A stretch of 46,746 nucleotides of DNA from positions 1 through 46,746 of the forward strand of contig NZ_CANMJB010000013.1 in the NCBI RefSeq assembly GCF_947498175.1, given 5' to 3'. This document shows, piece after piece, positions 28,833 through 38,791 of the stretch. Numbering within the stretch: the stretch's first letter is position 1; every line of letters begins with the position of its first letter. The notes beneath the pieces were generated by a model. It was not told the DNA's origin and did not search any database. It worked only from the letters and a program-made list of their open reading frames with translations. The position numbers were made by a program, and so were the translations under genes. The DNA is from an uncultured Algimonas sp. (GTDB taxonomy: Bacteria; Pseudomonadota; Alphaproteobacteria; Caulobacterales; Maricaulaceae).

Positions 28833-29153
28833 ATGACGCGCCTGCCGCTCATACGGGGACTCGCCATCCTTTTCGCCGCTCTGTTCCTGCTAGGCCAGGG
28901 ACTGGCGCAGGCGCATGATGCCGAACACGGGCTCGGACACAGTCATGACGGCGTGCCCTGCGCCGTATCCGTGCTGGGTGAAGACAAGGCGGAGTTGACG
29001 GTTCCGCCGTCCTTGGACGCCCCGGTCGTCGATCACGGCCCGGACATCACGCCGCGCCCGACGCCACTTGCGACGTTCCACGATGCACGGACCTGCCGCG
29101 CTCCGCCGCCCCGCGCGCCGCCGAACCCGGCATCCCGACACCAGCCTTGCTGA
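28833..29153 (+). CDS. Small His-rich exported protein
   Basis: A 106-residue protein with a signal peptide (hydrophobic 8-24, cleavage near GLAQA) and a mature start dense in metal-ligand residues (HDAEHGLGHSHDG followed by a Cys). The rest is Pro-rich and probably unstructured, with two more cysteines near the end. No domain recognised. It stands 105 bases before the ZnuD-like receptor and is likely in the same transcript; a periplasmic zinc-binding role is inferred from composition and neighbour. Confidence 0.6.
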   Translation: MTRLPLIRGLAILFAALFLLGQGLAQAHDAEHGLGHSHDGVPCAVSVLGEDKAELTVPPSLDAPVVDHGPDITPRPTPLATFHDARTCRAPPPRAPPNPASRHQPC

Positions 29154-29257
29154 CCGGCTCGACCGATCCGGCCCTTCCGAAAATGCCCTGCTTTGCGACC
29201 GGCGCGACACGCGACCGGAGCGAAGCACCCCTCGATCGCTCTTTGAAGTTTCAAACC

Positions 29258-31333
29258 ATGACCAAAACCCTTTTCGGCTCCGTTGCGAGCCTGTCCCTGA
29301 TCGCGGCCAGCGCGCAAGCGCAAACCGCCGACATTCCCTCCCCTTATGTAGACGAGATCATCGTTACCGGTTCGCCGATTGCGGTGCCGGCCGACGAAGT
29401 GCTCGTCGGCGTCTCCGTCCTGACGGATGACGAATTGGAACGCCGCATCGCCAAGACCATCGGCGAAACGCTGAAATACGAACCGGGCGTATCGTCCACC
29501 TTCTTCGGAGCGGGCGCGTCCCGGCCCATCATCCGCGGCCAGGGCGGCGACCGCGTCCGCGTGCTGACCAACGGCGTCGGGTCGATCGATGCCTCCGCGT
29601 CGTCGCCCGACCACGCCGTCGCCGCCGAGCCCGCCCAGGCGGAGCGCATCGAAGTGCTGCGCGGAGCGTCCATCCTGCGCTACGGCAGTTCCGGCGCGGG
29701 CGGCGTCGTCAATGTGATCGACGGCCGCATTCCGACCGCCCTGCCCGAAGACGGGCGCGAGGTGAACCTGCGCATGAGCGCGACCAGCGTCGATAGCGGC
29801 ATCGAGGCCGCCGGATCCATCGACCAAGCGATCGGGAGCAATCTGGTCCTGCATCTGGACGGCACGTTCCGCGATTCGGGCGACTTCCGCATTCCGGGCT
29901 TTGCCGAAAGCGCCGCCCTTCGCGCCGAAGAGGAAGCCGAACATGCGGCGGAAGGCGAAGACCATGAAGAGGAAGAGGAAGAGGAGGTCCGCGACCGCCT
30001 GCCCAACAGTTTCGTCGAAAGCCGCTCCGGCACGGTGGGCTTGAGCTGGATCGGCGACCGCGGCTTCTTCGGCGCGGCCCTGCACCGGTTCGAATCCGAC
30101 TACGGCATCCCCGGTGGCCATGAACACGGCCACGAGGAGGAAGAAGGCGAAGAGCATGACGAAGAGGAACATGGCGAGGAGGACGTCACCATCGATCTGG
30201 AACAGACCCGCTTCGACGTGAATGCAGGGCTGGATCTGGACGGTTTCTTCGAACGGCTGCAATTCTTCGGCGGCTATGCGGACTACGAGCATACCGAGTT
30301 CGAAGGCACCGAGACCGGCACGGTTTTCGCCAATGAAGGCTATGAAGGCCGGCTGGAGCTGGTCCAGCGCCAGGACGGCGCTTGGTCGGCCGCGCACGGC
30401 GTGCAGATCCGCAGCCGCGACTTCTCCGCCATTGGCGAGGAAGCCTTCGTGCCGCCGACGAAGACGATGCAATATGCGGGCTACACCTTCCACCGCTACG
30501 ACACGGAGAACTGGCATCTGGAAGGATCCGGCCGGATCGAATTCACGGATCACGACAACAGCGTCACGAACCAGACCCGCGACTTCACCGCGCTGAGCGT
30601 CAGTGCGGGGGCCGACCGGCACATCACCGAGACCCTCAAACTGGGCGGCACATTGTTCCGCACGGAGCGCGCGCCGACATCCGAAGAGCTGTTCAGCAAC
30701 GGACCGCACATCGCCACGAACGCCTTCGAAATCGGCGATCCGAGCTTGGGCAAGGAAGTGGCGACGGGCGGCGAAATCGCCCTGCGCCACCGCGCGCTCG
30801 GTCACGCCGTGACGGTCAACCTGTTCTACACCTCCTATGACGATTACATCTACGAGCGTCAGACCGGGGCGGAAGAGGACGATCTGCCCGTGTTCCAGTT
30901 TGTCGGCGACGATGCCGAATTCTACGGCGTCGAGGCTTACGGCGAGGTCGACCTGTTCAGTACCGGCCGCTGGGACGTCAGCGTCGATGCGCTGGCCGAA
31001 TATGTCGAGGCCGAGACCGACACTGGCAATCTGCCCCGCATCCCGCCCCTCGCCATCCTGACCGGCATCGAAGCGCAAGCCGAAGCCTTGCGCCTGCGCG
31101 CCGAGCTGGACTGGGCGGCCGATCAGGACGACACGGCGGCCTTCGAACGCGCGACCGACGGCTACACGTTGGTCAACCTGTTCGCGGCCTATGATTTCGG
31201 CGAGGCGATGACCTTCTCGCTCGGCCTGGACAATGTCTTCGACGAGGAGGCCCGCCAGCACACCTCGTTCCTGAAGGACGACCTGCCCCTGCCCGGACGC
31301 AATCTCCGCTTCACGGTTAGCGCGAAGCTCTAA
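29258..31333 (+). CDS. ZnuD-like TonB-dependent receptor
   Basis: A 691-residue outer-membrane receptor: signal peptide ending AQAQT, TonB box DEIIVTGSP, plug domain (RPIIRGQGGDRVRVLTNGVG, LRGASILRYGSSGAGGVVNVIDGR) and barrel with C-terminal FTVSAKL. Two extracellular-type loops are packed with Glu, Asp and His (around 29931-29995 and 30115-30186), the feature of ZnuD zinc receptors. So zinc, or zinc complex, uptake is the best guess. The frame is open upstream to a TTG at 29147, but the signal peptide begins at the ATG at 29258. The ribosome site is weak. Confidence 0.85.
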   Translation: MTKTLFGSVASLSLIAASAQAQTADIPSPYVDEIIVTGSPIAVPADEVLVGVSVLTDDELERRIAKTIGETLKYEPGVSSTFFGAGASRPIIRGQGGDRVRVLTNGVGSIDASASSPDHAVAAEPAQAERIEVLRGASILRYGSSGAGGVVNVIDGRIPTALPEDGREVNLRMSATSVDSGIEAAGSIDQAIGSNLVLHLDGTFRDSGDFRIPGFAESAALRAEEEAEHAAEGEDHEEEEEEEVRDRLPNSFVESRSGTVGLSWIGDRGFFGAALHRFESDYGIPGGHEHGHEEEEGEEHDEEEHGEEDVTIDLEQTRFDVNAGLDLDGFFERLQFFGGYADYEHTEFEGTETGTVFANEGYEGRLELVQRQDGAWSAAHGVQIRSRDFSAIGEEAFVPPTKTMQYAGYTFHRYDTENWHLEGSGRIEFTDHDNSVTNQTRDFTALSVSAGADRHITETLKLGGTLFRTERAPTSEELFSNGPHIATNAFEIGDPSLGKEVATGGEIALRHRALGHAVTVNLFYTSYDDYIYERQTGAEEDDLPVFQFVGDDAEFYGVEAYGEVDLFSTGRWDVSVDALAEYVEAETDTGNLPRIPPLAILTGIEAQAEALRLRAELDWAADQDDTAAFERATDGYTLVNLFAAYDFGEAMTFSLGLDNVFDEEARQHTSFLKDDLPLPGRNLRFTVSAKL

Positions 31334-31386
31334 GACCTGGCAAATCAGTCCATAGCCATCGCTAGGGGGTGATGGCGCGTATAGAC

Positions 31387-31414
31387 ATAAGGTCGCCCGA
31401 AAGGGCGGCCTTAT
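31387..31414. promoter_or_regulatory. 12-bp hairpin with GAAA tetraloop upstream of the rhodopsin gene
   Basis: ATAAGGTCGCCC (31387-31398), loop GAAA, GGGCGGCCTTAT (31403-31414); all twelve pairs form, one of them G-U. It lies 53 bases after the receptor stop and 58 bases before the rhodopsin start. There is no T-run on the plus side, so it may be a weak terminator of the receptor transcript, a processing or stability element, or part of the rhodopsin 5' leader. Confidence 0.6.
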
Positions 31415-31472
31415 GGAATGCGGGCACGACCCCTGCCTGCTGAAACGCTCTTCGCGTGCGGGAGGCACGGCT

Positions 31473-32318
31473 ATGGACAACTATCTCAATCTGCCTAATT
31501 TCGTGGAGCTGTCGGATCCGGCCTGGACGCTGGGATCGCTATCGCTCGTCGTCGCCTACGGCGCATGTTTCGCCTTCGCGATCTATTTCGTGCTCAGCAG
31601 TTTCCAACTGTCCCAGCGCTACCGCTTGGTCGCGGTCCTATCCGCGGTCGTCATGGTGTCGGCTGGGCTGTCGCTGTTCCGCGAAGCCATGATGTGGGAC
31701 CGCGCCTATGTCTGGGACGCCGCGCGCATGCTTCACGTGCCGATGCTGGACGGCGATACGTTCTCCAACGCCTACCGCTACGGCAACTGGACCATCACCG
31801 TGCCCTTGCTGTTGTGCCAGCTGCCCATCGCCATGGGACTGCCACGGCCCGAACTGCACAAACGCGCCCTGCGCATGGGCATAGCCGGGATCGCGATGAT
31901 CTGGACCGGCTTGGTCGGTCAGTTCGGCGAGGTGTCGGATTGGGGCCTGCTGAACCTGTGGGGCATCGTTTCGACGCTGTTCTTCGCGTGGCTGCTCTGG
32001 GAAGTCTGGGGCACGATCCGGGCGGGCGCGGCGACCACCCCGGCGGAGATCGACGGCTGGCGCAAGAATATCTGGTGGTACATGTTGCCGACCTGGGGCC
32101 TGTATCCCTTGGCCTACGCAATGCCGCAGCTGGGCCAGACGGAAACCATCGTCGTGGCGCAGCAATTCCTGTTCACCACGGCCGATATCACGACCAAGCT
32201 GGTCTACGGGGTCATACTGGCGCGCTTCTGCCTGCGACGGTCCGCGCTGGAAGGCCATGTCTCGGCCATCGAGGCGCTGGCCGATCCGGCCGCGATCGGA
32301 AGGGCCGTTCGGCGCTGA
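31473..32318 (+). CDS. Microbial (type 1) rhodopsin with NTQ motif, probable chloride pump
   Basis: A 281-residue seven-helix retinal protein. Helix C reads RYGNWTITVPLLLCQ: Arg102, Asn105, Thr109 and Gln116 align with bacteriorhodopsin Arg82, Asp85, Thr89 and Asp96. The proton acceptor and donor are therefore replaced, giving N-T-Q. That motif defines the inward chloride pumps such as Fulvimarina FR and Nonlabens NM-R3. Retinal Lys242 and counter-ion Asp238 lie in DITTK, and the pocket residues Trp208, Tyr211 and Pro212 are present. Leu113 at the proteorhodopsin tuning site predicts green absorption. GGGAGG seven bases before ATG 31473 fixes the start. No retinal-forming gene is adjacent. 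Ion specificity is inferred from the motif. Confidence 0.93.
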   Translation: MDNYLNLPNFVELSDPAWTLGSLSLVVAYGACFAFAIYFVLSSFQLSQRYRLVAVLSAVVMVSAGLSLFREAMMWDRAYVWDAARMLHVPMLDGDTFSNAYRYGNWTITVPLLLCQLPIAMGLPRPELHKRALRMGIAGIAMIWTGLVGQFGEVSDWGLLNLWGIVSTLFFAWLLWEVWGTIRAGAATTPAEIDGWRKNIWWYMLPTWGLYPLAYAMPQLGQTETIVVAQQFLFTTADITTKLVYGVILARFCLRRSALEGHVSAIEALADPAAIGRAVRR

Positions 32319-32323
32319 CGGCC

Positions 32324-33004
32324 TCAGCCGCAGCGTGATCCGGGCAGGGCCAGCGTCTGACCGATGGCGATGGCATAGTCGCCACCGATCGCGTTGGCAG
32401 CCGTGATCTCGCCGACCGGCACGCAGAGGCGGCGCGACAGCGAATAGACCGTGTCGCCTTGCTGCACCGTGTAGGACAGGCCGACCGCCGGCATGCTGGC
32501 GGCCGTACCGCTGACCGGTCCCTGCGGGGCCGGAGCCGGTGCGGCAATGACATTGCCGCCGATCGTGTTCTGAGCGAAATCGTAATTCACCTCGCGCGGC
32601 TGGCCGGGGACGAGCGGGCGCGGAGCCTGGACGGGCGCCGTTCGGGGCGCAACCGCTTGCGGCGTGGGTTGGATCTTGAATGGGGCGGGCTGATGCGGGC
32701 TTTGTTGCGCCACCATCATTTCATAGCCGGGCGTTCCGGTCATGCGGTCCGTATCATAGGCGTGTTCAGTCGGCGACACGGCCGTTTCCGGACCCCTTTC
32801 CGAACCGGCCAATTCCGGATGGGCGGCCGGGATCGCGCTGTACTGCACGCCTGCAACCGTCCGGGCCTCCGCTGCCAGAACGGGCGCCGTGTCGAGATCG
32901 GGCTCAACATATTTGGAGGAATACTGGTAGTTCGGGTTTTCTTGCACCGTCGAGCAGGCGGCAAGGGCGAGTGCGGAACCCACGAACAAGAGGCGGATGG
33001 ACAT
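32324..33004 (-). CDS. LysM-domain lipoprotein
   Basis: A 226-residue lipoprotein with lipobox LALAAC (Cys about residue 17), a long Pro/Ala/Gln-rich linker, and one C-terminal LysM domain (SYTVQQGDTVYSLSRRL to GQTLALPG, about 177-222) for peptidoglycan binding. It resembles NlpD-type proteins without the peptidase domain. The start at 33004 gives a proper lipoprotein signal. It is convergent with the rhodopsin gene, stop to stop within six bases. Confidence 0.83.
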   Translation of the reverse strand: MSIRLLFVGSALALAACSTVQENPNYQYSSKYVEPDLDTAPVLAAEARTVAGVQYSAIPAAHPELAGSERGPETAVSPTEHAYDTDRMTGTPGYEMMVAQQSPHQPAPFKIQPTPQAVAPRTAPVQAPRPLVPGQPREVNYDFAQNTIGGNVIAAPAPAPQGPVSGTAASMPAVGLSYTVQQGDTVYSLSRRLCVPVGEITAANAIGGDYAIAIGQTLALPGSRCG

Positions 33005-33184
33005 GGCGGTCTCCAAGCGGTTTGGCGCTCAGGCTGCGTTGAAAAGGTCAATTTTGGGTAAAGGCGTGTTTCCGCGCACCCGGGGGTTCCGGTCGCGGCT
33101 CCGACGCGCTATCCGCGTTGCGAAAGCCGAGCGCGTCCGGGCCGGACGCGTTTTTCGGGCCGAAACGCCGCCGCGAGGATATCG

Positions 33185-33922
33185 ATGACCATTTCCACCC
33201 GCACATTCGACTATCGGGACGGCGACACGCGCTGCACCGGCTACCTGGCCTATGACGAAAGCGTGGCGCGGGCCCGGCCCGGCATCCTGATCAATCACGC
33301 CTGGGGCGGGCGGGACGATTTTGCCGAAGGCGTCGCGGTGCAGATGGCCGCGAACGGCTATGTCGGCGTGGCGCTGGACAATTATGGCGGCGCGGCGCGT
33401 CCTGAAACCGTGGACGACAAGATGTCCTTGATGGGCCCGCTGAAGGAAGACCGGGCCGCGCTGCGCCAGCGCCTCAAGGCCGGGTACGACGCGGCCGCCG
33501 CCCTGGACGAAGTGGACTCCGGCGCCATGGCGGCGATGGGCTTCTGCTTCGGCGGGCTCTGCACGCTGGACATGGCGCGGGCCGGTTTGGACCTCAAGGC
33601 GGCGATCTCCTATCACGGCCTGCTCGATGCGCCCGATCTGCCCAGAAGCGACATCCGGGCCGATGTACTGGTCTGTCACGGCTATGACGACCCGATGGCC
33701 GATCCGGACAGCCTGCGCGCCGTGCAGGACGAGCTTTCGACATCGGGCTGCGACTGGACGGTGATGAGTTTCGGCAACACCAAGCACGCTTTCATGGTGC
33801 CCGAAGCCGACGATGCGGAGCTGGGCCTGAAATACAACAAGTCCGCCGCCGATCAGAGCTGGGCGGCGACGTTCGACCTGCTGCGCAAGCACTTCGGGAT
33901 GCACGGCACCGATGCGGCGTAA
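33185..33922 (+). CDS. Dienelactone hydrolase family protein
   Basis: A 245-residue alpha/beta hydrolase. The nucleophile motif is GFCFGG, with cysteine in place of serine as in dienelactone hydrolases; Asp in CHGYDDPMADP and His in NTKHAF complete the triad. An early HAWGGRDDF segment is the oxyanion region. GAGGAT before the ATG supports the start. It overlaps rnd by 11 bases. Substrate unknown; such enzymes act on lactones and small esters. Confidence 0.87.
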   Translation: MTISTRTFDYRDGDTRCTGYLAYDESVARARPGILINHAWGGRDDFAEGVAVQMAANGYVGVALDNYGGAARPETVDDKMSLMGPLKEDRAALRQRLKAGYDAAAALDEVDSGAMAAMGFCFGGLCTLDMARAGLDLKAAISYHGLLDAPDLPRSDIRADVLVCHGYDDPMADPDSLRAVQDELSTSGCDWTVMSFGNTKHAFMVPEADDAELGLKYNKSAADQSWAATFDLLRKHFGMHGTDAA

Positions 33923-35117
33923 ACCCGCAGGCAGCGTCAGCGGCGACGCGAGCGGCATCACCGTCATCCGCGACACGGAGGCGCTGGCGGAATTCTGCGA
34001 CGCGGCGCGCGAGCACGATTTCGTCTGTCTCGACACGGAGTTCATGCGCGAGACGACCTTCTACTCCATCCTCTGCCTGATCCAGATGGCGACGCCCGAC
34101 GACGAAGTGATCGTCGACCCGCTGGCCGAGGGTCTCGACCTCGCGCCCTTCGTCGATCTGCTGATGGACGACCAGCTGGTGAAGGTCATGCATGCCGCGC
34201 GTCAGGATATGGAGATCTTCTACGAGCTGTGCGGCAAAACCGTGCCGGGCCCGATCTTCGACACGCAGGTCGCGGCCATGGCGGCCGGGTTCGGCGACAG
34301 CGTCGGGTATGGCGGGCTGGTCAAGGGCCGGCTCGGCATCAATCTGGACAAGGGCGCGCGGTTCACCGACTGGTCGCGCCGCCCGCTCTCGGACAAGCAG
34401 CTCTCCTACGCCCTCGCCGACGTGACGCATCTGCGTGATCTGTTTCCGGATCTTGTGGACGAGCTCGAAGATGCGGGCCGCCTGCCTTGGGTCATGGAAG
34501 AGATGGCTCCGCAGATGGAAGAAGACCTCTACGCATTCGACCCCGAAGATGCCTGGCAGCGCCTGAAAGTGCGCAATCCGCGCAAGCCCTATCTGGCCGC
34601 ATTGCGTGCCGCCGCCGCCTGGCGCGAGGAGCAGGCGATCGAGCGCGACGTGCCGCGCCGCCGCGTGCTGAAGGACGACGCGCTTTACGACCTGGCCACG
34701 CAGAAGCCCCGCGACCTGGACGCACTCGGTCGCTTGCGCGGCATTCCGCGCGGGTTCGAGCGCTCCGGCGCGGCCAAGAGCCTGATGGCGCGGATGAACG
34801 ACGCGCTCGACAATGCGGAGGATTACGCCCCGGACGTGCCCAAGCCGACGGCCATGCCGCCCAATCTCGGTCCGCGCGTGGAAATGCTCAAGACCTTGCT
34901 GCGCCTGCGCACCGAGGTCGTCGGCATCGCCCCGCGCCTGGTCGCCGGGGCGCGCGAGATCGAGAAGATCGCCGCGTTCGGCGAGGAGGCCGGCGTGTCG
35001 GCGCTGAAGGGCTGGCGGCGGGAGCTGTTCGGCGACGACGCGCTGGCATTGTTGCGGGGCGAGATCGGGCTGCGGCTGGATGGCGACGATGTGGTGGCGG
35101 AGCGGTTTCAGGGGTGA
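33912..35117 (+). CDS. rnd: Ribonuclease D
   Basis: A 401-residue 3'-5' exoribonuclease for tRNA and stable RNA processing. DEDD motifs are seen as CLDTEFMRE (Exo I), HAARQDMEIFY (Exo II) and SYALADVTHL (Exo III), followed by two HRDC domains (around 215-290 and 310-400). The start overlaps the end of the hydrolase gene. The N-terminal 15 residues are unusual and a slightly later start is possible. Confidence 0.94.
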   Translation: MRRKPAGSVSGDASGITVIRDTEALAEFCDAAREHDFVCLDTEFMRETTFYSILCLIQMATPDDEVIVDPLAEGLDLAPFVDLLMDDQLVKVMHAARQDMEIFYELCGKTVPGPIFDTQVAAMAAGFGDSVGYGGLVKGRLGINLDKGARFTDWSRRPLSDKQLSYALADVTHLRDLFPDLVDELEDAGRLPWVMEEMAPQMEEDLYAFDPEDAWQRLKVRNPRKPYLAALRAAAAWREEQAIERDVPRRRVLKDDALYDLATQKPRDLDALGRLRGIPRGFERSGAAKSLMARMNDALDNAEDYAPDVPKPTAMPPNLGPRVEMLKTLLRLRTEVVGIAPRLVAGAREIEKIAAFGEEAGVSALKGWRRELFGDDALALLRGEIGLRLDGDDVVAERFQG

Positions 35118-36309: not shown

Positions 36310-37860
36310 CTACAGATACGCCTCCGCCTTGACCGTCTTCAGCCCCGCAATGAACCCGTCTGCCTGCTCCAGCAACGCATCGCGCTTATCGCCGTCCATC
36401 CGGTCGAGGTTGCGGTAGACCATGCTCATGCGGCGATTGCCGCGCAGCTTGTCCTCGTTGCGCGCGACGAAGTGCCAGTAGAGCGAATTGAACGGGCAGG
36501 CATCCTCGCCCACGCGCTGGGTCACCTTGTACCGGCAATTGCCGCAATAATCGCTCATCCGGTTGATGTAGGCGCCGGACGCCGCATAGGGCTTGGATCC
36601 CAGCAGACCGCCATCGCCATACTGGCTCATGCCGAGCGTGTTGGGCAGTTCCACCCATTCGAAGGCGTCCAGATAGACCGACAGGTACCATTCGTGAACC
36701 GCATGCGGGTCCGCGCCGATCAGCAAGGCGAAGTTTCCCGTAATCATCAGCCGCTGTATGTGATGGGCGTAGGCGTGCTCGATCGTCTGGCCGATCGTGC
36801 TGCGCAGGCATTCCATGTCGGTCTCGCCGGTCCAGTAGAATTCCGGCAGATCCAACGTGTTGCCGAAGAAATTCTTCTCCTCGTAACCCGGCATTTCCAT
36901 CCAGTAGATGCCGCGCACATATTCGCGCCAGCCAATGATCTGGCGGATGTAGCCTTCGGCGGCATTGATCGGCACGTCGTCGTCCTTGTACCGCGCCTCG
37001 ACCGCCTGGCAGACCTCCAGAGCGGTGAGCAGCCCCGCATTGAGGTAGGGCGAGATCAGCGAGTGGAACAGGAAGTCCTGCCCCGTGACCATCGCGTCCT
37101 GATAGTCGCCGAATTGCGGCAGGCCGTGGGTCAGGAAGTTGTCCAGGCTGACCAGCGCGTCCGCCCGGCTCACGCCCCAGAAAAACCCGTCCGCATGGCC
37201 GAAGCGCGTCGGAAACTCGGCCTTGACCATGGCGATGACGCCGCGCGTGATGCCGTCGGGCTGGAAGCGCTGCGTCTCCGGGAAGACCATGCCCTCCTTG
37301 GCAGGCTTGCGGTTTTCCTTGTCGTAATTCCATTCGCCCCCTTCGGGCTTTTCGTCCGCCGTCATCAGCAGCCCGGTCTTGCGCCGCATTTCGCGGTAGA
37401 AATATTCCATGCGCAGCTGCTTGCGGTCTTCGGCCCAGTCGGCGAATTCCTCGATGCCGCAGACGAAGCGGTCGTCGGGCGAGATCGTCACGCGCTTGCC
37501 GAACCGGTCTTCCCAGCGACGAACCGCCTCAAGCACGCGGTGATTGCCGGGCCAGGTCACGGCGATCTCCGCCACGTCATGGCGATCCAAGGCGCGCTCG
37601 ACCTCTGTCGTGAAGCTGTGCGTGTTGTCCGGGTCCGTCAGTTCGACATAGTCCACCGCCCAGCCATCTTCCCGCAGCTCTTCGGCGAAATGGCGCATGG
37701 CGGAGAAAAGGAAAATCAGCTTGGTGCGGTGGTGCGGCACGGATCGAGCCTCCTCCTTCACCTCGACCATCAAGACGCGCGCATGATCGCGATCGGCGAA
37801 CTGAAGCGCGGACAGACCGTGGGAGAGCTGGTCGGCAAAGAGGGGGATGAGCGTCGTCAT
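36310..37860 (-). CDS. phrB: (6-4) photolyase / FeS-BCP cryptochrome (PhrB type)
   Basis: A 516-residue light-driven DNA repair flavoprotein. Four cysteines at 351, 439, 442 and 455 match the [4Fe-4S] ligands of Agrobacterium PhrB (350, 438, 441, 454) almost number for number. His366-His367, Trp343, Trp391 and Tyr392 match its active-site His pair and electron path. The family uses FAD plus 6,7-dimethyl-8-ribityllumazine and repairs (6-4) photoproducts. The N-terminal [10 protein letters not shown] replaces the classical photolyase start, as usual for this clade. The ATG at 37860 starts the homology; the frame stays open to 38502 opposite the SDR gene. It is divergent from a DUF2256 gene, its usual partner. 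Confidence 0.93.
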
Positions 37861-37917
37861 GATTGTGATACGCGCTGTCGCTGCCAACCGTTTCGCAGCC
37901 GCGTCCGTATTGAGTCC

Positions 37918-38064
37918 GTGAGCAAGGCGAACAAAAGCTATCTGCCGTCCAAGGACTGCGCGACTTGCGGGCGGCCTTTCAGCTGGCGCAAGAAATGGGC
38001 CCGCTGCTGGGACGAGGTCCGCTATTGTTCGGAGCGCTGCCGGAGAGAGAAGCATGCTGGATAG
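37918..38064 (+). CDS. DUF2256 zinc-ribbon mini-protein
   Basis: A 48-residue protein with a GTG start and Cys14, Cys17, Cys30, Cys37 and Cys41 in the DUF2256 pattern [16 protein letters not shown]...VRYCSERCR. It is likely a zinc finger. The family is regularly found beside FeS-BCP photolyases, as here, but its role is not known. It overlaps the SDR start by 11 bases, so the two are translated together. Confidence 0.88.
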
Positions 38065-38791
38065 TTTCGAGACGCCGATCCGCGCCGTCGTCGTCGGCAG
38101 CACGGGCGGCATCGGCGCGGCTTTCGTCGAGGCGCTGGCGGGCAGCGACCGGGTCGAGGCGGTCCACGCCTTGTCGCGAACCGGCGCGTCGCACCCCTTC
38201 CCCAAGGTTCGCAATCTGACGTTCGACTTCCTCGACGAGCCCAGCCTCATCGCCGCTGCGCAGGCGCTGGGCGAAGTCGGTCCGTTCGACCTGATCCTGG
38301 TGGCGACCGGCTTTCTGCACGGCTCGGACGTCCAGCCGGAAAAGACGATGCGGTCGCTGGATCTGGACGCCATGCGACGCAATTTCGAGATCAACACGTT
38401 CGGTCCGGCCCTGACGGCCAAGCATTTCCTGCCGCTGCTCGCGCGCGACCGCAAAGCCGTGTTCGCGGCCCTGTCGGCCCGGGTCGGCTCGATTTCCGAC
38501 AACCGGCTCGGTGGCTGGTACAGCTACCGCGCCTCGAAAGCGGCGCTGAACATGATGATCCAGACCCTGTCGATCGAGACGGCGCGCCGCCGCAAACAGC
38601 AAGTGGTGATCGGCCTGCATCCCGGCACGGTCGATACGGAGCTGTCGGAACCGTTCCAGGGCAACGTGCCGGAGGGCAAGCTGTTCACGCCCGCGTTCTC
38701 GGCCAGAAAATTGCTGGAGGTGGTGGACCGGGTAGGCCCTGAGGATACGGGCGGATTATTCGCCTGGGACGGGGCGCGGATATCGTCTTAA
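38054..38791 (+). CDS. Short-chain dehydrogenase/reductase, CsgA/C-factor-like
   Basis: A 245-residue SDR. The nucleotide-binding motif is [16 protein letters not shown] (a TGxxxGIG variant) and the active site is [13 protein letters not shown] with YxxxK, preceded by the catalytic-Ser region [11 protein letters not shown]. The closest type is the C-factor/CsgA group of small SDRs. Position in the photolyase/DUF2256 locus is common in this group of bacteria; substrate unknown. Start ATG 38054 lies inside the DUF2256 gene. Confidence 0.9.

Follow-up and report, generated by a model that had tools for sequence, protein, structure and literature searches.

Two questions are raised by a rhodopsin gene in an uncultured Algimonas sp.: which ion does its product transport, and why does the gene stand where pyruvate kinase is found in the rest of the genus? 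The window, i.e. the whole stretch of 46,746 nucleotides that was analysed, is the entire contig C13 of a genome of 2.85 Mb that is rated 100% complete and is present as 26 contigs. We consider it very probable that the product of the gene is an NTQ (ClR) rhodopsin that pumps chloride inward in the light. The gene occupies the pyruvate kinase slot, for which an exchange incidental to the function of the pump is the likelier explanation. The features of the locus are listed in Table 1.

Table 1. Features of the rhodopsin locus, with positions in the window.
Feature	Position	Strand	Remarks
TonB-dependent receptor gene (Plug + barrel), bordering the slot on the left	29147..31333	+	Conserved in the genus
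Exchanged stretch	31334..32330		DNA similar to that of G046 up to 31333 and again from 32331
Hairpin in the gap between the receptor and rhodopsin genes (13-bp stem, GAAA loop)	31386..31415	+	Possible terminator of the receptor gene, no T run
GGGAGG, ribosome-binding-site-like	31460..31465	+	7 nt 5' of the ATG at 31473; read directly
NTQ rhodopsin gene, putative light-driven inward chloride pump	31473..32318	+	281 aa; N105, T109, Q116, R102, D238, Schiff-base K242
LysM-domain gene, bordering the slot on the right	32324..33016	-	Stop codon 5 nt from the rhodopsin stop
Unnamed gene	33029..34045	-	Beside the LysM gene in 17/17 other genus genomes
RNase D-like gene (3'-5' exonuclease + HRDC)	33912..35117	+	Start uncertain; within the 1.5-kb flank in 15/17

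The rhodopsin gene and its product

The reading frame is open and its product is an intact microbial rhodopsin, which matches the Bac_rhodopsin model of Pfam with an E-value of 3e-29 and 102.5 bits (cut-off 24.6); NCBIfam models gave zero matches to this protein. The start chosen here fits because the GGGAGG stands at a suitable place upstream. An alternative in-frame ATG is located further upstream at 31413, and the near relative L031 has its own ATG one residue ahead of the point aligned with our start. The G+C content is 0.638 for the gene and 0.647 for the window. At the positions of residues 85, 89 and 96 of BR, the protein presents Asn, Thr and Gln. The preliminary description had already noted this motif, together with an intact Schiff-base Lys, an Asp in the counterion region and an Arg; the same residues were read again in the translation and the alignment.

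Relatives and phylogenetic placement

Searching bacterial and archaeal genomes with a query alignment of eight NTQ proteins gave 34 related loci: 32 with NTQ, one with NDQ (L062) and one with a broken frame (L051). They are hosted by Hellea, Erythrobacteraceae, Sphingomonadaceae, Novosphingopyxis, Fulvimarina, Parvularcula and one member of the Acidimicrobiia, the latter with the NDQ protein. In a tree of 49 rows, from which L051 was dropped, the window protein groups with that of Hellea MAG-189 (support 99/89), then with that of Hellea AM-377-K14 (100/99) and that of Novosphingopyxis baekryungensis (96/92). A 27-row subclade (100/99) contains the window protein and, in its sister part, the Fulvimarina rhodopsin FR. 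The sister group of this subclade is made up of the NTQ proteins from Parvularcula, and the alphaproteobacterial NTQ clade of 33 rows is supported at 96/94. NM-R3 stands loosely with the NDQ proteins (87/70), and a single NTQ clade including NM-R3 was not rejected in the AU test (p 0.25). The tree flags long branches, among them that of the window protein (0.51).

Two other affiliations were discarded. The AU test rejects a position of the window protein among the NDQ sodium pumps (p 3.4e-6), and T109 stands in place of the Asp. A proton pump of the DTE/DTX type or a xanthorhodopsin does not fit the non-acidic N105, and the eight DTE/XR rows are split from the window protein at 100/99. The protein had been described beforehand as a candidate chloride pump, a view that placement in a non-pumping clade would speak against. 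No such placement was found: the protein lies inside the alphaproteobacterial NTQ clade that holds FR, which supports the candidate.

Alphaproteobacteria with NTQ pumps are already known (FR, PoClR), and PMC5118547 mentions putative NTQ pumps in Citromicrobium and Sphingopyxis. The window protein extends these pumps to a further lineage, probably the genus to which Hellea sp. MAG-189 belongs. Full-length close relatives of its gene are rare. In the family, 9 of 137 genomes have any match, and full-length close copies are present in three, namely the window genome, G048 (68%), which is grouped in the same genus, and G019 (67%). At the level of the order, 10 of 249 genomes match at 1e-20, remoter types included, and within the genus any Bac_rhodopsin match is seen in 3 of 18 genomes. 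In our literature search, the words rhodopsin and Robiginitomaculaceae co-occurred in a reference list only.

Among the relatives, Parvularcula oceani JLT2013 has two different NTQ genes (L058 and L059) in one genome; PMC5118547 reports three rhodopsins for P. oceani, one NTQ, one NDQ and one DTL. An identical NTQ protein is encoded in P. dongshanensis (L057) and P. oceani (L058), and the surrounding DNA, about 11.4 kb, is 98.5% identical between the two, which is either a recent island transfer or a contamination. A heavy-metal P-type ATPase gene adjoins the NTQ gene in L058.

The pyruvate kinase slot

The two flanks of the rhodopsin gene are general in the genus, as both the LysM gene and the TonB receptor gene were matched in 18/18 genomes. 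In all 17 other genus genomes it is pyruvate kinase that is next to the LysM gene (match gaps of 74–1093 bases), in G050 as a remnant. The receptor follows 455–1971 bases beyond pyruvate kinase in 14 of these 17 genomes; in G049, G050 and G060 the two are on separate contigs. In G046 and G059, a pyruvate kinase gene (PF00224) on the minus strand lies between the LysM gene and the receptor gene. The exchanged stretch measures 997 bases with the rhodopsin here versus 1637 with pyruvate kinase in G046.

No match to PF00224 was found in the window genome. The 17 other genus genomes gave 16 open frames over the cut-off and the G050 remnant, and the control genomes were positive in 14/14 cases. A tblastn search with the G046 kinase detected no remnant in the slot of the window, and one chance-like match (E 0.2) elsewhere in the window. 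PPDK, which uses AMP and pyrophosphate to convert PEP to pyruvate, is encoded in full length in the window genome. It is over the cut-off in 16 of the 18 genus genomes, the two exceptions being 65% and 70% complete. Since PPDK can form pyruvate from PEP, loss of pyruvate kinase should be survivable. In G050, a genome with no rhodopsin match, two remnants next to the LysM gene are all that is left of pyruvate kinase (contig C10, pieces at 1987–2406, L106). This suggests a second loss in the genus, tolerated there.

It may be asked whether the rhodopsin was gained in return for the kinase, i.e. whether one recombination swapped pyruvate kinase for a chloride pump that was then kept for its function, an ATP-yielding step being traded for light. 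If so, the PEP-to-pyruvate step would be left to the pyrophosphate-linked PPDK, PEP would be spared for carboxylation in the light, and light-driven membrane energisation would have been gained at the very locus of the lost ATP-making step. We consider such a trade unlikely. Pyruvate kinase is kept in 31 of 32 rhodopsin-bearing genomes, the window genome being the only one to lack it. This set consists of 16 family or order matches (G136, a weak match with stops, was omitted) and the hosts of 16 of the 34 loci; it holds about 30 distinct genomes, as coordinates are identical within the pairs G228/G351 and G236/G350, each of which probably represents a single genome, and it is not restricted to NTQ, some members having DTE rhodopsins only. 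A general link between rhodopsin and loss of pyruvate kinase was therefore rejected, and because the two are not generally coupled we hold an incidental exchange, in which a dispensable gene was hit by an insertion or replaced by recombination, to be likelier than a selected trade. Gain of the one and loss of the other need not be linked.

Our literature search, which covered mainly titles and abstracts, returned nothing on a rhodopsin in the place of pyruvate kinase. As a parallel, and as a lead only, PMC10030771 describes proteorhodopsin-bearing SAR11 IIIa as being without pyruvate kinase, one member excepted. The surprising part is that a phototrophy gene sits exactly at the address of a central glycolytic gene that has seemingly been lost. 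With one such organism and sister species that bear pyruvate kinase, the role of chloride-pumping rhodopsins becomes testable.

Residues of the chloride path and rate of change

Aligned with NM-R3, the window protein keeps the residues corresponding to N92, R95, Y96, N98, T102, Q109, Q143, E146, W201, Q224, T228, D231 and K235; roles of the chloride-path residues of NM-R3 are described in PMC4999514. The substitutions are Q230 for R223, S47-Q48 for A44-P45, T241 for S234, V53 for A50 and H88 for the aromatic Y83. In the extracellular cavity, four of the five residues N92, Y96, Q143, E146 and R223 are kept, the exception being R223, i.e. Q230. We compared these positions with 32 NTQ relatives, after removal of L051 (frame breaks after 27 aa) and L062 (NDQ). 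The R223 position has R in 28 and Q in 4 of them. P48 is constant in 32/32 and is Q in the window protein. Position 88, in a loop of uncertain alignment, is aromatic in 32/32 and is H here. In the 3-omega triad of NM-R3 (F15, W72, Y83), the tryptophan is kept as W75 and the third position corresponds to H88, with the same uncertainty.

The branch of the window protein is the longest in its 4-row subclade. In relative-rate counts with L032 as outgroup, the window protein has 42 unique changes versus 13 in L031, and 33 versus 18 in L030; with FR as outgroup, it has 26 versus 20 in L030. Pairwise dN/dS of the window gene is 0.19–0.43 in the three unsaturated of four pairs; over all ten pairs compared, dN/dS is below 0.5 in 6/6 unsaturated ones. 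The window rhodopsin is thus under constraint, though not a tight one. Given the replacement of R by Q in the outer cavity and the somewhat fast evolution, there is room for a weak pump.

One step further, the product could be an NTQ-clade retinal protein with poor pumping, encoded by a relaxed copy that is decaying at its new place as in G059, where the gene has an internal deletion. The unusual residues V26, S47, Q48 and H88 at positions otherwise constant in the family, the long branch and the faster change relative to L031 all point in this direction. Against this, the frame is intact, the residues contacting chloride and the Schiff base are kept, and every unsaturated dN/dS value is that of a constrained gene. 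The replaced proline also need not be harmful, as the P45A variant of NM-R3 is reported to pump like wild type (PMC4999514). Taken together, we regard a poorly pumping, decaying copy as quite unlikely, and a chloride pump as the better reading.

The deleted copy of G059 (C2:130923-131329, L006 / L091) is itself an NTQ gene, with about residues 35–160 missing. It adjoins a sodium:dicarboxylate symporter gene, whose counterpart near the NDQ gene in the window genome has about 70% identity to it, and G059 also carries a DTE rhodopsin (L014). Four NTQ copies in one family, one of them deleted, at four addresses, represent a natural set for tracking movement and decay of such genes.

Neighbourhood and integrity of the locus

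The rhodopsin gene starts 140 bases after the receptor gene. The intervening stem is contained in a 56-base stretch that folds at -36.1 kcal/mol (z -7.0), with 0/200 shuffles as low. A consensus scan of the gap found neither a terminator nor a sigma-70 promoter. The gaps between the receptor and pyruvate kinase genes of G046 and G059 also form stem-loops upon folding. If the stem is the terminator of the receptor gene, the rhodopsin gene would be a separate transcription unit. An operon with the TonB receptor is disfavoured by the strong hairpin, by the stem-loops of G046 and G059, and by absence of the pair in 37 related loci, which include L004 and L005 as repeats of L030 and L031. With nine window neighbours as queries, no match was obtained at 1e-10 in these 37 loci (flanks of at most 6 kb), and one weak SDR match at 1e-3. 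The neighbourhood is thus not common to the relatives within reach of these flanks.

Mobile origin was also considered and set aside: in plasmids, tblastn found only two 30% matches, in Polymorphobacter, and the viral contig scan was without any relative. There are no tRNA genes in the window, repeats around the rhodopsin gene are weak, and the gene does not stand out from the window in G+C content. About 4 kb from the rhodopsin gene, another light-related cluster is located at 36313-38788, in which a photolyase-related (DPRP) gene on the minus strand is divergent from a DUF2256 gene and a short-chain dehydrogenase gene.

The genome is a draft in 26 contigs, so that the apparent exchange might be an artefact in which pieces were misjoined and pyruvate kinase was lost from the assembly; the gene could sit in an assembly gap. 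Both flanks are however in genus order on a single contig, and the G+C content is even across the joins. Moreover, pyruvate kinase was not found elsewhere in the genome, whereas a mere misjoin would leave it behind. An assembly artefact appears improbable on these grounds, and we retain a genuine exchange.

Structure model and ion selectivity

An AlphaFold2 model of the window protein, built from an alignment with 27 of the 34 related loci, has seven helices, a mean pLDDT of 90.7 and a pTM of 0.87. It superimposes on the NM-R3 chloride pump (5g28) with TM 0.90/0.96 and rmsd 1.3, and on the sodium pump ErNaR with TM 0.89/0.92. Among solved structures ErNaR is the top match by E-value in sequence and fold searches, narrowly ahead of NM-R3, which could be taken to mean that the protein pumps sodium or protons in spite of its motif. 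This is very improbable. The Asp of NDQ is T109 here, both the tree and the AU test exclude an NDQ affiliation, and residues 105 and 116 are both non-acidic. The threonine site is also decisive, as in NM-R3 the T102D change is reported to abolish chloride pumping and chloride binding (PMC4999514). A light sensor instead of a pump, to which the separation of the gene from both blh and the second rhodopsin gene could point, is very unlikely, as no transducer or kinase was found among the 20 frames scanned (23632-46113) and the clade contains pumps.

The glycine aligned with XR G156 and GR G178, presumably the residues that open the window for a carotenoid antenna, is kept as G164. The fold search also returned the myxol-bound structure of NM-R3 (9jow), which makes an antenna possible for the window rhodopsin too.

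A second rhodopsin, retinal genes and proposed function

The genome holds two rhodopsins, the NTQ protein in the window and an NDQ protein on C3 (NWLIDVPMLLTQ, L001 / L064, G000:C3:357-361 kb); the genome search found none beyond this pair. A blh gene adjoins the NDQ gene on the opposite strand, with a sodium:dicarboxylate symporter gene beyond. From its sequence, the NDQ protein is a putative light-driven sodium pump near a sodium-using transporter. C1 carries a full-length lycopene-cyclase match, and C1 and C7 hold two phytoene/squalene synthase family genes. These two names are less certain than that of blh, because both families match control genomes (9/14 and 7/14 over the cut-off, versus 0/14 for blh). 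The rhodopsin gene had been said to stand alone, with neither partner nor retinal genes. This holds within the window, but not for the genome, given the NDQ rhodopsin and blh. In Hellea AM-377-K14 (L031:5995-7652), a blh frame begins right where the NTQ frame ends, with both on one strand, so that opsin and retinal-making enzyme are probably cotranscribed there.

Chloride is the most plausible ion for the window rhodopsin, since chloride pumping is reported for both FR and PoClR; direction, retinal binding and cycle are likewise inferred from relatives. Retinal, supplied via blh, would be bound to K242. N105 would replace the acidic counterion, and a chloride held by N105 and T109 would neutralise the protonated Schiff base. 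Upon photoisomerisation, the chloride would move past the Schiff base toward Q116 and the cytoplasm, and a new one would enter from outside past R102 and D238. The NDQ sodium pump may act as partner: with sodium going out and chloride coming in, both proteins would render the cell interior negative, with no proton-pumping rhodopsin involved. PPDK could take over the step from PEP to pyruvate.

Comparison with known systems

NM-R3 (ClR) of Nonlabens marinus is like the window protein in motif and fold, and its chloride-path residues are mostly identical; it differs by an identity of 37% in the fold alignment and by its loose position in the tree relative to the alphaproteobacterial NTQ proteins. 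FR of Fulvimarina pelagi (L046), described in PMC4585134 as a Cl- pump with chloride-dependent colour, is likewise an NTQ protein of an alphaproteobacterium, with 57% identity over residues 2–270. In contrast to the window protein, FR has R at the R223 position and S before the Schiff-base Lys, and 0/9 window neighbours were found in its 6-kb flanks. SpClR of Novosphingopyxis (Sphingopyxis) baekryungensis (L032) resembles the window protein more closely, with 61% identity. Both have Q where NM-R3 has R223, and both have T directly ahead of the Schiff-base Lys; the gene neighbourhood is another one. We take L032 to be the S. baekryungensis protein that gave a 518 nm pigment in E. coli according to PMC7979833. 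Finally, PoClR of P. oceani (L058 or L059), for which PMC5118547 reports chloride-dependent transport in E. coli, is 46–51% identical to the window protein. P. oceani also differs in having a xenorhodopsin (PMC5118547) and pyruvate kinase. It offers the same arrangement as the window genome according to PMC5118547, i.e. an NTQ pump accompanied by an NDQ rhodopsin, with no outward proton pump.
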